A stretch of 64,000 nt of DNA, taken from the NCBI RefSeq assembly GCF_023276435.1, contig NZ_JALLPO010000006.1:124001-188000 (forward strand). Direction: 5' to 3'. Made by a program: the position numbers and the translations under genes. Of the stretch, positions 48,313-56,284 are shown piece after piece; positions within the stretch are counted from its first letter, which is position 1, and each line of letters starts with the position of its first letter. This stretch comes from Sphaerisporangium perillae. GTDB taxonomy: Bacteria > Actinomycetota > Actinomycetes > Streptosporangiales > Streptosporangiaceae. Under the pieces are notes generated by a model. It was not told the origin of the DNA and ran no database searches. It saw nothing but the letters and a program-made list of their open reading frames with translations.

Positions 48313-49292
48313 GACCGACCCTTGGCGTTCCACGGACACACCTGCCCAGAAAAGCGGGGTGTACTTCTGAGCCTTACTGACTGACGTGCACCTCGTCATC
48401 ATTTCGTCAGATTTGGTGTCATTAAGTGATCAATTTGCGCCCATCCGGCGCCCGGCGAACACGCCTTACGGCCGCAGGCAACCCCACAACCTCGGCCGAT
48501 GCCCTTTTGTTATATACATGCCTGAGGGAAGCCGCGTGGCTTACCAAAACGGCCGCCACCGCGGGCCACTGACTCCGAAACCGGGAACCGGAGTCAAGAA
48601 AGACGTGGCGGCGGTTCTCCCGCCGGGAGTGGCGAGGGCGGCGACCGGCGCGCGCGATCCGCTCGCGCGCCACCGTCCCCGCCGCGACGCGCAGGGCGCC
48701 ACGACCCGTCCCCGACGGTATCCCGCCGAACTTTGATCCGCCGGCCGCGCGGAAGGGTTCCAGAGACGGTCGCGCCGGAATGGCCGCGCGAATCACGGCC
48801 CGGAGGGCACGCGGCGAAGGCGCGTCCCGCCCGCTCTTCTTCCGCCCCGCGCGGCGATTCCAAGAACGTCACGAGTGCGACCGTGTTCCACACCTGGAGC
48901 ACAATGCGTGTGCTGAATTCGTGAATGTCGCCGGCCGGTCTGGAGCACCTGTCCGATAAGGGGGTAGCGGGATACGTCCGGACGTATTCCATGGGCTGCC
49001 TCCGGCGGCGCTCATCGCCGGCCACAAGGCGATGACTTCCGGGTGCGGACGGCTCCGGAAAGACGCCGCCCGGCGGCACCCCTATGGCGGGCCGGCGCCC
49101 TCGGAAGGCACCGGAGGGTTTTCGCCCGGCGCGGACCGGACCATGGGCCGCACGACAGGAATTCGGGCTTCCCATGATACTCCACATCCATTACCTTGAG
49201 TATCCGCTTAACTACACAGTGAAGTCACGGCTCGCGTGGAACGGTGGTCACGTCTCGGCTCGCCCACCACAAAATGGAGTAAGGAGTTTCAA
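48313..49292. other. Long gene-free stretch
   Basis: About 980 bp. Open frames exist on both strands but show Arg/Pro-rich compositions without domain-like patterns. AT-richer parts at 48395-48440 and 49175-49290 probably hold promoters of the flanking genes; AAGGAG at 49281-49286 serves the XRE gene. Confidence 0.45.
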
Positions 49293-50120
49293 ATGCCACA
49301 TATGACTAAAATCAACCCGGAAGATTCCGCGCGCGCCCGTTTCGCCTACGAGCTTCAGCGCTACCGCATACTGGCGGGGCTCACTCAAGAGCAGCTCGGC
49401 CGCCGGGTCGGCTTCTCCGGCAGCCTCATCGGCGCCGTCGAGAACCTCAAGCGCACTCCCAGCGAGGACTTCGCCAAGCGCTGTGACCAGGCATTCGAGC
49501 TCGACGGCGTGCTCCAGGCCCTCCACCTCGAAGGCTGGCCGCCCCCGCCGCCGGTCGCCGATCATTTCCGCGATTTCACCTTCGAGGAGCGCCGCGCGAC
49601 GGCAATTCAAACGTGGGACCCGCTACTGGTGCCCGGGATCTTCCAGACCGAGCCATATGCGCGGCGGATCTTCAGCCGCGCGCCGGGCAGCACGCCCGAA
49701 CAAGTCGAGGAACGGGTGATCGGCCGGATGCAGCGCAAGAACATCTTGTCGCAGGAAAATCCGCCTCTGATCCTCAGCCTGATGGACGAGGGCGTTCTGC
49801 GCCGGCCCATCGGCGGCAAGGAAGTGATGCGGAACCAGATGCGGCACCTTCTGGAAATGGCCGAGCATCCACGGGTGACGATCCAGATCGTTCCCTTCGA
49901 CGCCGAGGCTATCCCCGGCCTGCTTGCCGGTTTCGTTATAGCCGAACAGCGCGGGACGCCATATACGGTATATGTGGATTCAGTGCCCGACGGACGTACG
50001 ATGAGCGATCGAAACGCGATCGCGTTGCTCACCGCTCGTTACGACGCCATCAGGGCGGAGGCCTACCCCCAGTCCCTGTCGCTCAAAGTAATCAAGGAAG
50101 CGGTGGACAAATGGATCTGA
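49293..50120 (+). CDS. XRE-family regulator with DUF5753 domain
   Basis: 275 residues from the ATG at 49293, six bases after AGGAG. HTH at about 12-70 (ELQRYRILAGLTQEQLGRRV, then GFSGSLIGAVENLKRTPSED). The DUF5753 domain is at about 95-270 (WDPLLVPGIFQTEPYARRIF, EHPRVTIQIVPFDAEAIPGL). This type, with a DUF397 partner, is expanded in sporulating actinomycetes and includes regulators of development and antibiotic production. The downstream DUF397 gene overlaps by 10 bp. Confidence 0.85.
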   Translation: MPHMTKINPEDSARARFAYELQRYRILAGLTQEQLGRRVGFSGSLIGAVENLKRTPSEDFAKRCDQAFELDGVLQALHLEGWPPPPPVADHFRDFTFEERRATAIQTWDPLLVPGIFQTEPYARRIFSRAPGSTPEQVEERVIGRMQRKNILSQENPPLILSLMDEGVLRRPIGGKEVMRNQMRHLLEMAEHPRVTIQIVPFDAEAIPGLLAGFVIAEQRGTPYTVYVDSVPDGRTMSDRNAIALLTARYDAIRAEAYPQSLSLKVIKEAVDKWI

Positions 50121-50311
50121 GTGCCGCGTTATGGCGCAAGTCATCCCGCTCCGGTGACAACGGCGGCCATTGCGTCGAAGTCGCGAGCAACCTGGCCGAC
50201 GCGATCGCCGTCCGTGACTCCAAGCGACCCGACCGTCCCGCGGTGATCTTCAGCTACGGCGAGTGGCACATGTTCGTCGACAACCTCAAGACCGGTCACA
50301 TCACCCTCTGA
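50111..50311 (+). CDS. DUF397 protein
   Basis: 66 residues from the ATG at 50111, overlapping the XRE gene. Signature ALWRKSSRSGDNGGHCVEVA, AIAVRDSKRPDRPAVIF and a Trp near the end (GEWHMFVDNLK) are those of DUF397. These small proteins act with the adjacent DUF5753 regulator, probably as antagonists or partners. Confidence 0.9.
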   Translation: MDLSAALWRKSSRSGDNGGHCVEVASNLADAIAVRDSKRPDRPAVIFSYGEWHMFVDNLKTGHITL

Positions 50312-52091: not shown

Positions 52092-54080
52092 TCAGTCGCG
52101 GCCGCTCTGGTCGAGCTTGGCCAGATAGGCGTTGTAGGCGTCCAGCTCGGCGTCGCCGGTGCCGCCCTCTTTGGCGGCGCGCGCGTCGGCGCGCCGGTCG
52201 GCCCGCCTGGTCGTGCGCTGCTCGTCGCGGTACCACTGGAAGGCGAGCGCGATGAGCACGATCAGCGTGGGGATCTCGCCGAACGCCCAGGCGATGGCTC
52301 CGCCGGTGCTCTGGTCGGAGAGCCCGGAGGCTCCCCAGGTGCGGCCGAGCTGGTCGTACCACTCCCCCGCGATCGGGGTGCCCATGTTCATCAGCGCGAT
52401 GCCGAAGAAGGCGTGGAACGGCATGGTGACGAAGAGCAGGAGCAGCCGGCCGACATGCGGGATCTTGGTCGGCGCGGGGTCGATCCCGATGATCACCCAG
52501 AAGAAGAGGCTCCCGCTGAGCAGGAAGTGGACGGTCATCGCGATGTGACCGAGGTGCTCCTCCATGGCCGCGGCGAACAGCGGCGTGAAGTAGAGCGCGT
52601 ACGTCGAGACGATGAAGATCGCGGTGGCGATCGCCGGATGCGTGACCACCTTGACGACCCGGCTGTGCAGGATCGTCGTCACCCACTCGCGCGGGCCTCG
52701 GTCGCCCCGCCGCGCGGCGGGTTTGAGCGCCCGCAGGGCCAGGGTGACCGGGGCGCCCAGGACCAGGAAGATGGGCACGAGCATCGACAGGATCATGTGC
52801 TCGGTCATGTGCACGCTGAACAGCACCGGAGCGTAGCGGGCGACGCCGCTCTGGGTGACCAGGACGAGCAGCAGCACCCCGACGCCCCAGCTGATCGTGC
52901 GGCCCATCGGCCAGTGGTCGCCGCGGCGCGCCAGCCGCACCGCCCCCGCACCGTACAGGAAGGCGAGCAGGGCGGCGATCGTCGCGAAGAACAGGTCGAA
53001 CCACCACAGCGTGAGGAGGTTCGCGACCGAGATCGGCGGCGGGACGAGGTAGCCCAGCAGCTCGAAGGCGCGGTCCACCGGCAGGTCGAGCGGCGGCGGG
53101 GCGGTGCGCGACAGCGCGACGGCCAGGCCGACCGCTACCAGCATGATCAGGCCCTCGACGCCGGCGAGCCTGACGAAGGCGCCCGGCCGGCCGGCGGACA
53201 GCGCGGGAAGGGTACGGCCGCGGTGCCACCAGCCGATCACTCCGAGGGCGGTGAAGGCGGCGACCTTGGCCAGGATGATCAGGCCGTAGGAGCTGGTGAA
53301 GAGGTCCTGGACCGACGTCAGCCGGCTCAGCGCGCTGAACGCGCCGGACAGGCCGACGCCGACGAAGCACCACAGCGCCATGCGGGAGAAGCGTTGCGCG
53401 GCGAGGTCGAGGTGGGGCTCCTGGCGCAGGGCGTGCACGCACAGCAGCAGGAGCCCGCCTACCCACAGCGACAGGACGAGCAGGTGGAGCGCGACGCTGG
53501 TCGTGGCCAGGCCGTGGTTCGGCGCGGAGGAAGAGTGGCCGGTGAGGGCCGGCGGCATCAGCGTGGCAAGCGCGAGGACGAGCAGGCCCCCCGAAGCGCC
53601 CGCGGTGATCGCGCCCCGCGAGAACAGGGCGATGGCGGCGCCGAACAGCACGACGAGGGTGAGGGCGATGCCCTGCGGCACCTGGCTGGCGTAACTGGTG
53701 AGCTCGTTTCCGCCGAGCACGTCGACGACGGGCGTGCCCAGCGTCTCAGAGAGGCTGAAGACGAGGGTGGCGGCCGCCGCCGCGGCCCAGAGCAGGCCCG
53801 TCCAGGAGGCGGCCCGGACGTAGCGGAGTGCGGGCTTGCCCAGCAGACCCTTGTCGCTCGGGAGCAGCATGGTCGCGAGGAGCAGCAGGCCGACGGTCAG
53901 CACGCCCGCGGCGTCCATCGCGAGCTTGGACACCGGCAGGGCCCAGCGGGTCAGCGCCCCCTCGTCGGGCAGGCCGGGGATGATGCGCGGCGTGGCCGCG
54001 CCGCCGACGACCATGGCGACGATCAGGCCGCCGAGCGCCAGGCAGGCCCCCGCGATCCCGAGCCGGACGGTCTTGCTCAT
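52092..54080 (-). CDS. CopD-CtaG fusion: copper-resistance and cytochrome oxidase assembly membrane protein
   Basis: 662 residues from the ATG at 54080, overlapping copC by four bases. About 16 hydrophobic helices. The first half is CopD-like (LHLLVLSLWVGGLLLLCVHA, RFSRMALWCFVGVGLSGAFS). The second half is a CtaG/Caa3-assembly domain (VHMTEHMILSMLVPIFLVLG, LFFWVIIGIDPAPTKIPH, PFHAFFGIALMN) with His residues expected to bind copper. This two-part protein is usual in actinobacteria and moves copper across the membrane for oxidase metallation. Confidence 0.9.
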   Translation of the reverse strand: MSKTVRLGIAGACLALGGLIVAMVVGGAATPRIIPGLPDEGALTRWALPVSKLAMDAAGVLTVGLLLLATMLLPSDKGLLGKPALRYVRAASWTGLLWAAAAAATLVFSLSETLGTPVVDVLGGNELTSYASQVPQGIALTLVVLFGAAIALFSRGAITAGASGGLLVLALATLMPPALTGHSSSAPNHGLATTSVALHLLVLSLWVGGLLLLCVHALRQEPHLDLAAQRFSRMALWCFVGVGLSGAFSALSRLTSVQDLFTSSYGLIILAKVAAFTALGVIGWWHRGRTLPALSAGRPGAFVRLAGVEGLIMLVAVGLAVALSRTAPPPLDLPVDRAFELLGYLVPPPISVANLLTLWWFDLFFATIAALLAFLYGAGAVRLARRGDHWPMGRTISWGVGVLLLVLVTQSGVARYAPVLFSVHMTEHMILSMLVPIFLVLGAPVTLALRALKPAARRGDRGPREWVTTILHSRVVKVVTHPAIATAIFIVSTYALYFTPLFAAAMEEHLGHIAMTVHFLLSGSLFFWVIIGIDPAPTKIPHVGRLLLLFVTMPFHAFFGIALMNMGTPIAGEWYDQLGRTWGASGLSDQSTGGAIAWAFGEIPTLIVLIALAFQWYRDEQRTTRRADRRADARAAKEGGTGDAELDAYNAYLAKLDQSGRD

Positions 54081-54682
54081 GGCTTCTTCCGCAGGCTGAT
54101 GGCCATGCCGATGCCGATGCCGGCGATCCCGAAGATGACGATCCACACCCAGACGGGGATGCCGCCCGTCTGGCGGGACTCCTGCGACACCGGGGTCGGG
54201 GCGAAGGCGGGCGGCGTCGGCGTGGTGGCGTTGGGCGACGCGGCGGGCGGGCTCGCCTGCTCGGTAGAGGACGGAGCGCTCGCCTGGGAGGACTGGGCCG
54301 GCGAGGGGCTCGCGTCGGGGGCCCGCACCGTGAAGGGGATCTCCCCCTCGACGGGATGGCCGTCGTCGGAGACCACGCGCCAAGCGATGGTGTACTTCCC
54401 CGAGGGCAGCGGGCCGGCCACCTTCTGTGTGACGGTCGGACCGTCCGTCTTGGGCTTGCCCTCGTGGTGCTCGCGACCGCCCGCGTCGCGCACGAGCACG
54501 ACGGGGAGGCGCACCGCCTCGGTGAACGTCAGCGACACCGAGTCGAGGCTCTTGACCGTGGCCCCCTTCTTGGGGTCGCTGCTCTTGAGCGAGGTGTGGG
54601 CGAGCGCTGGAGACGCGAAGGCCGTGCCCAGCACGACGGCGACCACGAACGCCAGGGCGGCGGCAAGCGGAGAAGTCCTCAT
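54077..54682 (-). CDS. CopC-domain copper-binding protein with C-terminal anchor
   Basis: 201 residues. Signal peptide 1-28 ends at ASPALA, leaving His 29 at the mature N-terminus (HTSLKSSDPKKGATV), the classic Cu(II)-binding position. Asp and His in SDDGHPVEG complete the site. A CopC beta-barrel runs to about 120, followed by a Ser/Pro/Ala-rich linker and a C-terminal membrane helix with basic end (LRKKP). Works with the overlapping CopD-CtaG protein in periplasmic copper handling. Confidence 0.9.
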   Translation of the reverse strand: MRTSPLAAALAFVVAVVLGTAFASPALAHTSLKSSDPKKGATVKSLDSVSLTFTEAVRLPVVLVRDAGGREHHEGKPKTDGPTVTQKVAGPLPSGKYTIAWRVVSDDGHPVEGEIPFTVRAPDASPSPAQSSQASAPSSTEQASPPAASPNATTPTPPAFAPTPVSQESRQTGGIPVWVWIVIFGIAGIGIGMAISLRKKP

Positions 54683-54802: not shown

Positions 54803-56101
54803 CTACAGGCCGACACTCGCGAGCGCCCGCTGATAGGCGGCCACGCTGCCTTCCCCGCCATCGAGATGCTCCAGCACCATGGCCGTGGCCAGCCACCCCT
54901 CGGCCGCCTTGCGGGAGGCGGGCGAGTGCTCGAGCGACCGCTCCACCGCCATCAGCTCGACGGACGCCTCGGGCGCCTCGTCCAGCAGCAGGAGGGCGTT
55001 GCCCAGGACCAGGCGCGCCTCGGCGAGGAGCGCCGGGGTGCGCTCGTCGAGCATGTCCCTGCCCCGGCGGGCGTGCTCGGCGGCCTTCTTGGCATCGCCG
55101 AGCACGATCTCGGCCTTGGCCAGATAGATCGCCGCCCGCGCCAGGTCGACGGCACCCGCGGAGGACTCGGCCAGCTCTCGCTCGCCGCGCAGCATCAGGT
55201 CACGGCAGGCCGCGGCCTCCGCGGGGCGCGTGCGCAGTAGCAGGACGGCGTACTCCATGCGGAGCCTGGCGAGGTTGCGGGGCTCTCCGGTCTCCGACTG
55301 CACGGCCAGCGCGCGCTCCACCAGAGAGATCGCCTCGTCGCTGCGCCCGGTGATGTCGGCGACGACGGCGGCGTTCCAGCAGGCCGCGACGGTCGAGCGA
55401 GGCGTGCCCAGCATCTCGGCGGCGGCGAGCAGCTCCACCGAGAACTGGCGGGCCCGCAGCAGGTCGCCCCGCACGATGTAGGCGCCGAGGAGGGTGGAGC
55501 CGAGCTCCACCAGGTCGTCGTTCCAGGTGGGCCGGCCGGCGCCGAGAAGCGTCTCTTCCCCGACCTGCACCGCGGCGGCCAGGTCGCCGCGCTCGCGGTA
55601 GCACCGTGACAGCGCGACGGCGATGGCCACCACCTGCTCGGCGGGCAGCGTCGACCCGGTCGCGTCACGCAGCCGCGACAGGACGATGATCGCCTCGTCG
55701 AGGTCGCCGCACGCCTCCGCGGCCAGGGCGTAGCCGTACTCGGCCTGCTGCATCAGGGAGCGAAGCCCGGCGAGGCTGCCGTCTTCGAGCAGCTCGGCGT
55801 ACCGCCGGCGGGCCTCGGCGACCTCGCCGTTGTTGAGCGCCAGGCTCGCGTAGCCGAGCCGGAGCTCGAGGTCCTGCATCTGTTCGGCCGTGACGCCGTT
55901 GATCAGGTAAGTTAGGGAGCATTCGAGCTTGGCCGCCAGCAGTTCCAGAACGGCCGCCGTGGGCGTACGCTTGCCACTCTCGATCAGTGAGACGTAACTG
56001 TCCGAGAGTTCCGGATGCGCCAACTGGGCCTGGGAAAGACCGCGCTGGCGGCGGGTCGTTTTGATTCGCTGTCCAATAAGATCTTGACCGTTCACCGGCA
56101 C
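54803..56101 (-). CDS. XRE-family regulator with C-terminal TPR repeats
   Basis: 432 residues. HTH at about 8-66 (LIGQRIKTTRRQRGLSQAQL, then SDSYVSLIESGKRTPT). The rest is a chain of TPR-like helical pairs (about 80-430), e.g. GDLDEAIIVLSRLRDATG, GRSDEAISLVERALAVQ, GDAKKAAEHARRGRDML. This is the plan of RRNPP peptide receptors: an HTH plus a TPR superhelix that binds a small imported peptide. A gene for a 44-residue secreted peptide lies divergently 48 bp away. Whether this protein senses peptide is inference; many actinobacterial XRE-TPR proteins have no known ligand. Confidence 0.8.
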   Translation of the reverse strand: MPVNGQDLIGQRIKTTRRQRGLSQAQLAHPELSDSYVSLIESGKRTPTAAVLELLAAKLECSLTYLINGVTAEQMQDLELRLGYASLALNNGEVAEARRRYAELLEDGSLAGLRSLMQQAEYGYALAAEACGDLDEAIIVLSRLRDATGSTLPAEQVVAIAVALSRCYRERGDLAAAVQVGEETLLGAGRPTWNDDLVELGSTLLGAYIVRGDLLRARQFSVELLAAAEMLGTPRSTVAACWNAAVVADITGRSDEAISLVERALAVQSETGEPRNLARLRMEYAVLLLRTRPAEAAACRDLMLRGERELAESSAGAVDLARAAIYLAKAEIVLGDAKKAAEHARRGRDMLDERTPALLAEARLVLGNALLLLDEAPEASVELMAVERSLEHSPASRKAAEGWLATAMVLEHLDGGEGSVAAYQRALASVGL

Positions 56102-56149
56102 CCCTTCAAGATGTAATCCCCGACAATCTGCGACCGACAGGAGTCAGTC

Positions 56150-56284
56150 TTGCGTCGCCGCCGCCTCGCACTTCTCGCCTTGGGCATCGTATTCTCGGCC
56201 ACCCTTGGCCTCTCCGGCAATGGTACGGCCGTTGCCGACTCCCCGTCCGCCCATAACGTCCGTGCGGACTTCCTGTGCTGTTGA
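56150..56284 (+). CDS. Small secreted peptide (44 residues), candidate signal
   Basis: TTG start at 56150, six bases after AGGAG (56139-56143). The product begins RRRRLALLALGIVFSATL, a textbook signal peptide, continues to a likely cleavage after GTAVA (residue 29), and leaves a mature part of 15 residues: DSPSAHNVRADFLCC. Stop at 56282-56284. It is too short for usual gene calling and needs a TTG start, so it may be unannotated. It is divergent from the XRE-TPR gene with 48 bp between starts, so the promoters overlap. A ribosome-binding site, signal peptide and stop in the right places argue against chance. Confidence 0.6.
   Translation: MRRRRLALLALGIVFSATLGLSGNGTAVADSPSAHNVRADFLCC

Follow-up and report, generated by a model that had tools for sequence, protein, structure and literature searches.

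Regulator and peptide genes at the locus

In a 64,000-nucleotide stretch of the Sphaerisporangium perillae genome (contig NZ_JALLPO010000006.1; hereafter, the window), a gene for an XRE-type regulator with a helix-turn-helix (HTH) domain and tetratricopeptide repeats (TPRs) lies divergent from a very short gene, putatively encoding a propeptide, whose product ends in Cys-Cys (CC). The two starts are separated by 48 bases (56102–56149), and the features of the locus are collected in Table 1. An earlier note on this DNA had described a regulator of the HTH-plus-TPR plan and, 48 bp away, a divergent TTG-initiated frame of 44 residues, with a ribosome-binding site, a signal peptide, and a 15-residue mature part ending in two cysteines. 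That description held. The regulator matched Pfam HTH_3 (E 1.7e-10) and TPR_12 (E 1e-8), both above the Pfam cut-offs, and no NCBIfam model at cut-off; the coordinates of the small frame were confirmed, and GGAG stands 6 bases from its TTG. Judged by simple rules and by eye, the N-terminal part of the peptide, MRRRRLALLALGIVFSATLGLSGNGTAVA, is signal-peptide-like, with a basic start, a hydrophobic core, and an AxA motif, after which cleavage, also placed by eye, is predicted to leave the 15-residue DSPSAHNVRADFLCC.

In the alignment, an N-x-T motif and AxA are common in the signal part of relatives, and the start codon at the homologous position is mostly ATG or GTG, with TTG in the window genome and its nearest relative, L003. 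A Pfam scan of the window peptide found no family, nor did Pfam and NCBIfam scans of 25 aligned peptides that include it. Searched against its own genome, the 25-row peptide profile gave a single strong match (E 1.9e-17); all others (8.9e-4 and weaker) lay within open frames of at least 305 aa and were set aside as unrelated signal sequences instead of further copies.

Table 1. Features of the regulator-peptide locus in the window (f1, Streptosporangiaceae family group)
Feature	Position	Strand	Basis
XRE/HTH + TPR regulator gene, 432 aa, GTG start	54803..56101	-	Pfam, AlphaFold2 model, relatives
Putative propeptide gene, 44 aa, TTG start, C-terminus Cys-Cys-stop	56150..56284	+	Open reading frame translation, recurrence, shuffles
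Signal-peptide-like part, residues 1-29, N-x-T motif frequent in relatives, AxA	56150..56236	+	Alignment; cleavage by eye
Predicted mature part, 15 residues	56237..56281	+	Comparison with relatives
Ribosome-binding site ACAGGAG of peptide gene	56137..56143	+	Similar G-rich sites in relatives
Conserved promoter-like element of peptide gene (TTGACC, ~19 bp, AGATGT)	56084..56114	+	Conservation by eye, f1 sequences

Recurrence of the pair

Regulator homologues were found in 84 of 198 related genomes (E ≤ 1e-40) and, among 393 genomes of the class, in 56 at E ≤ 1e-30, with a profile search yielding 71 of 393 at E ≤ 1e-40. The first set comprised 126 distinct regulators, 29–100% identical; the final set, which adds the profile search and further loci, holds 160. 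Partner frames were sought by a CC end and a signal-peptide-like start within flanks of ~0.6–1.5 kb at most loci, so CC peptides lying further off escape the count.

Beside 80 of the 126 regulators in the first set stood a divergent signal-peptide-like frame with a CC end, compared with 0 or 1 when these stretches were dinucleotide-shuffled 20 times and 0 in an opposite-strand control. Among 2,668 other open reading frames of these loci (30–110 aa), 11 end in CC, and 1.5 are expected for the divergent slots; five of the 11 are signal-peptide-like; these lie behind the regulator and are its convergent partners. A divergent CC frame beside the regulator exceeds chance.

In the final set, 105 regulators adjoin a signal-peptide-like frame whose last two residues are CC. 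The frame is divergent at 96 loci and convergent at nine, where it points at the 3′ end of the regulator gene. No frame ends in CC at the other 55, of which five (L073, L186, L188, L189, and L205) have near-terminal variants with one to five residues after CC. Seven such frames were considered; that of L019 was dismissed as an overlapping high-GC frame and that of L021_2 as a neighbouring module's own peptide. Exact-CC pairs occur in ten coded family groups: f1/Streptosporangiaceae, f11, f16, f21, f22, f27, f28, f29, f40, and f41, with a single locus each in f22, f29, and f41. Among the coded families, we would guess f21 to be Micromonosporaceae-like and f20, which is outside these ten, to be Streptomyces-like. 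The earlier note had named orthologous loci lacking a conserved divergent peptide as the observation that would count against it; the peptide is present at 14 of 14 named orthologues and beside 105 of the 160 regulators. The small divergent frames that it proposed looking for were recovered as CC frames at 96 of 160.

Among five plasmid loci from Streptomyces, two carry a nearby CC-ending candidate annotated as a hypothetical protein, and the other three have none. WP_123083198.1 (71 aa) lies on the same strand directly behind the regulator, and WP_331750220.1 lies ~1.9 kb behind it with another gene between; the former is too long for the length rule and was picked up through its CC end, and the latter is distant, which makes both weaker evidence. 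In one genome (G107, C23), two regulator-peptide modules, L031 and L048, adjoin on the same strand and encode different CC peptides; they are a tandem duplication with diverged tails.

Receptor residues associated with the CC end

An AlphaFold2 model of the regulator, built from 15 sequences, has a mean predicted local distance difference test score of 89.1; short helices cover the N-terminal HTH region, and a long run of helix pairs follows. Its fold resembles those of NprR, Rap, and PlcR, the first two being matched along with many other TPR folds, and a profile match to PlcR (E 2.1e-14) covers profile positions 5–191.

Across 107 conserved columns, the four residues most strongly associated with a CC tail were N276, T203, N243, and A239, followed by R275 (Fisher tests for the CC-associated residues gave 2e-18 to 2e-14 with kinship ignored). 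The four sit in model helices 195–211, 234–250, and 274–291, which we read as the A-helices of consecutive TPRs; by our own register, T203 and N243 would occupy repeat position 6 and A239 position 2. These two repeat positions line the groove in peptide-binding TPRs.

Variation, replacement, and absence of the peptide

Compared across clades, the tails before CC are hypervariable: positions −3 to −10 agree at only 5–10% in 735 pairs whose receptors are 60–75% identical. Within clades, tails are shared, RADFLCC being found in three Sphaerisporangium-like loci (the window, L003, and L004) and GPRVHCC in six. In the window's mature part, these last seven residues are the same as in L003 and L004, and the residues before them vary. 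At position −3, 73 of the 105 peptides have Y, W, L, F, H, or M. In four relatives of the g65 group, the ratio of nonsynonymous to synonymous substitution rates (dN/dS), a rough estimate from few sequences here and below, was near 2 in the mature part versus 0.25 in the signal part.

One receptor clade (10 rows, Shimodaira–Hasegawa-like approximate likelihood ratio test support 100) has a different partner. Nine members (L019, L050, L052, and L062–L067) keep the signal peptide with a differing, mostly W/P-rich tail, such as GWNHPD or WGWPG (L065 ends in PLNNAE); the tenth is L073. The sequences would allow a possible switch of pheromone type here. In the nine W/P-tailed members, N243, N276, and A239 are missing from all and T203 from seven.

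The pair is not universal: some regulators lack the peptide. No CC peptide was found within the flanks of twelve f1 paralogues (this genome's second regulator copy included) or eight f20/f39 homologues, beside eight f1 regulators on two neighbouring branches, or at the Streptosporangium plasmid locus L216, and none was convincing beside 11 regulators of the phylum outside the class. The eight f1 regulators on the neighbouring branches all lack N243, and T203, A239, and N276 are each missing in four or five of them. From the sequences, residue losses in the W/P-tailed and peptide-less receptors would fit a pocket for the CC end, and peptide-less regulators may be orphan or eavesdropping receptors. 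Three loci of a CC-less paralogue clade (L134, L144, and L148) seemingly have a common upstream gene on the same strand, with a C-terminus of about DQAL..PFIPYPE.LYLEVC by eye. Viral versions were sought and rejected: 12 viral-contig loci match over only ~50–60 HTH residues, with no peptide convincing by eye, and the phage record MT836207.1, an unverified faecal scaffold whose regulator is cut by the record end, has no CC frame.

Promoter region and neighbouring genes

The promoter-like element of the peptide gene (TTGAC, ~18–19 bp, AGATGT) and the ribosome-binding site are kept in the f1 relatives compared, and f21 sequences differ. As the TTGACC box overlies regulator codons 5–6, the 5′ ends of the two genes overlap. 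A sigma-70 consensus scan of the intergenic region gave no match and did not recognise the element. The inverted repeats of this region amount to one 12-nt pair with 83% complementarity, its right arm altered in relatives. Several relatives carry the palindrome TGACCGGTCA at the TTGAC box; it is absent from the window, and we therefore claim no operator.

After the regulator, on the same strand, lie copC and a CopD-CtaG fusion gene (52092–54682, −), possible targets of the regulator. Both copC and copD are present at 14 of 14 named Streptosporangiaceae loci. Among 117 loci with more than 1 kb behind the regulator, 42 have copC/copD matches, all in f1/Streptosporangiaceae, and at 37 of these 42 the regulator has a CC partner. 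CC-partnered f1/Streptosporangiaceae loci with this length of flank also number 42, so that copC-copD follow the regulator in 37 of 42, and a local copper role is possible. Beyond the peptide position, a PucR gene was found in 44 rows (39 with a CC peptide), always on the regulator's strand; in the window, a xanthine-dehydrogenase-type gene follows it.

Outside f1, genes were called by a simple rule of GC content at third codon positions (GC3) at 19 loci, two without a regulator being dropped. A Pfam scan of 37 neighbour frames from 16 non-f1 loci found no copper family; four frames had no family, and one was the manganese efflux pump MntP. Among the neighbours scanned, f21 has ribonucleotide reductase, EamA, and aminotransferase genes, and other families differ. 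The regulator-peptide pair is the sole constant part found, as expected of a stand-alone signalling module. EamA- or LysE-type transporter genes adjoin the pair at L253, L254, and L255 (f21), L269 (f27), and L261 (f28), which could be chance. Elsewhere in the window, a regulator of the XRE-DUF5753 type by Pfam (49236–50120, +) is followed by a DUF397-like frame, identified by eye, ending at 50311; this looks like a common actinomycete XRE-DUF397 pair.

Interpretation

We consider it likely that the two genes represent, in Actinomycetes, an RRNPP-like pair of a propeptide and its cytoplasmic receptor, the peptide combining a constant CC anchor with a specificity part that varies. The peptide-signalling pair suggested by the earlier note gains support from the recurrent linkage, in both divergent and convergent arrangements, and from the TPR-helix residues associated with CC; the CC end beside a hypervariable tail and the tail replacement in one clade were likewise observed directly. 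The small gene would yield a propeptide, exported by its signal peptide and cut to a short C-terminal peptide with a Cys-Cys end. This would re-enter the cell, probably by an oligopeptide permease, and bind the regulator on the concave side of its TPR superhelix, as the CC-associated residues suggest. Binding would alter the regulator's hold on DNA, probably first at the shared intergenic promoter region; we infer action between cells and a regulon as well. T203, A239, N243, and N276, which have R275 close to them, would read the Cys-Cys end as a constant anchor; specificity would come from the residues ahead of it.

Several findings weigh against this reading. Fifty of the 160 regulators have no CC peptide within the flanks, nine of these carrying a W/P-tailed frame, and at L076 and L077, two of the peptide-less f1 regulators on neighbouring branches, the peptide gene seems to have been lost, PucR lying 46 bp away. 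Because frames were selected for CC and a signal-like start, the invariance of both among the 105 follows from the search itself, and the five near-terminal variants show that CC need not be terminal. For the receptor, independent-pair sign tests (14 pairs) were only suggestive (median p 0.031 for T203, 0.0625 for N243, 0.125 for N276, and 0.219 for A239), and one or another of these residues is missing from 6 to 13 of the 105 receptors with a CC partner. The TPR fold is a generic one: scaffold proteins from eukaryotes score equal to or above RRNPP receptors. Estimates of dN/dS were ~0.3 in both parts of eight f21 sequences (mature part, 0.28) and 0.72 in the mature versus 0.43 in the signal part of L055–L057; diversifying selection on the peptides thus appears not to be general. 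Finally, copC-copD next door in f1 could point to copper instead of cell density.

This last point underlies a reading that we think unlikely, in which the peptide would be secreted to act as a metal (Cu(I)) or redox ligand, not as a population signal, and the regulator controls copper genes while sensing the peptide's metal or thiol state. The 42 loci with copC/copD, 37 of them with a CC peptide, speak for it, and a C-terminal Cys-Cys is chemically plausible as a soft-metal site. The lack of any copper family among the scanned neighbours of other families led us to reject copper as the general function, keeping it as a local f1 possibility; hypervariable residues before CC and a W/P-tailed clade would also be unexpected for a simple metal ligand. 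We give equally little credence to a peptide that reports the producing cell's own secretion, proteolysis, or uptake state to its own regulator with no exchange between cells. Genetic linkage is what was shown, and self-sensing would leave the same traces, but the pherotype-like hypervariable tails suggest selection for specificity between strains.

It is very improbable that the peptide is bacteriocin-like or toxic and repressed by the regulator. The peptide's small size, secreted type, and variable tail, together with its divergent position relative to a gene of the XRE repressor type, would suit such a role, but at 15 residues its predicted mature part in the window is short, and the scanned neighbours include no recurrent immunity, transporter, or modification gene except the EamA/LysE type at some loci of three families. 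Least credible of all is a cysteine-responsive leader (attenuator) peptide, which the two Cys codons ahead of the stop could suggest. The best GC3-scored frame beyond the 96 divergent peptides lies on the same strand in 16 cases, as an attenuator would have it, but on the opposite strand in 64, with 16 undecided (9 unclear and 7 with too little flank). As no conserved co-directional downstream gene emerged, we rejected this explanation; PucR on the regulator's strand in all 44 rows and the nine convergent loci, where the peptide heads for the regulator's 3′ end, also speak against it.

Neighbouring thiols can form a vicinal disulfide or hold metal, so the receptor of an RRNPP-like pair may read cell density jointly with the redox or copper state outside the cell. 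Such a redox-gated pheromone would belong to an undescribed peptide language common to Actinomycetes, in which XRE-TPR receptors read secreted peptides that join a Cys-Cys anchor to a hypervariable specificity part, an idea that we offer tentatively and hold to be doubtful.

If the RRNPP-like reading is true, a conserved peptide/receptor family in ten actinomycete family groups would open peptide control of development and secondary metabolism there, through a little-known signalling system whose type has until now been described in Firmicutes. The family would take in Nonomuraea and Microbispora, genera known for antibiotics. The CC end and variable tail also provide directly synthesizable candidate pheromones, such as RADFLCC and GPRVHCC.

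Comparison with known systems

XRE-DUF397 pairs are actinomycete XRE regulators with a small partner gene, a layout that the window pair shares. Unlike in those pairs, the partner here is a secreted-type peptide, and the regulator has TPRs, not DUF5753; we rejected identity with them, as neither DUF397 nor any other Pfam family was found in the window peptide or the 25 aligned peptides. Mycobacteria have cysteine-responsive leader peptides, which the window frame resembles in being short with consecutive Cys codons ahead of the stop. It differs from them in its signal-peptide-like start, in the next gene being mostly on the other strand, and in its linkage to a regulator in two arrangements.

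The closest likeness is to the RRNPP/RRNPPA pairs of Firmicutes (PlcR-PapR, NprR-NprX, Rap-Phr, Rgg-SHP, ComR-ComS, PrgX, and AimR), with which the window pair shares the receptor/propeptide layout, a signal-peptide-like start, a TPR fold akin to NprR, Rap, and PlcR, and clade-specific tails. As far as we searched, published RRNPP work concerns Firmicutes. The main text of two papers on RRNPPA evolution (PMC9765709 and PMC12700828) mentions neither "actino" nor "cysteine", and our searches of open-access papers, a scope that leaves preprints and most subscription papers outside, turned up no title or opening of an abstract on CC peptides paired with XRE-TPR regulators. Passages of PMC10075063 describe communication signals in Actinomycetota as typically enzyme-made small molecules and give the RRNPP signature as an HTH and TPR receptor of 250–500 aa with an adjacent propeptide of 10–100 aa within −60 to 400 bp. 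The window's receptor is 432 aa, with HTH_3, TPR_12, and a helical model, and its putative propeptide is 44 aa, with 48 bp between starts and recurrence in relatives. As these two testable structural criteria agree, and secretion, import, and binding are what we infer, we label the pair RRNPP-like, with no named subfamily. It differs from the known pairs in occurring in Actinomycetes, in the Cys-Cys at or near the C-terminus, in its divergent or convergent arrangement, in a receptor of no named subfamily, and in peptides of which the 25 scanned belong to no Pfam or NCBIfam family. A redox-gated CC pheromone, should that doubtful idea hold, would set the Actinomycete pair further apart from known RRNPP systems.
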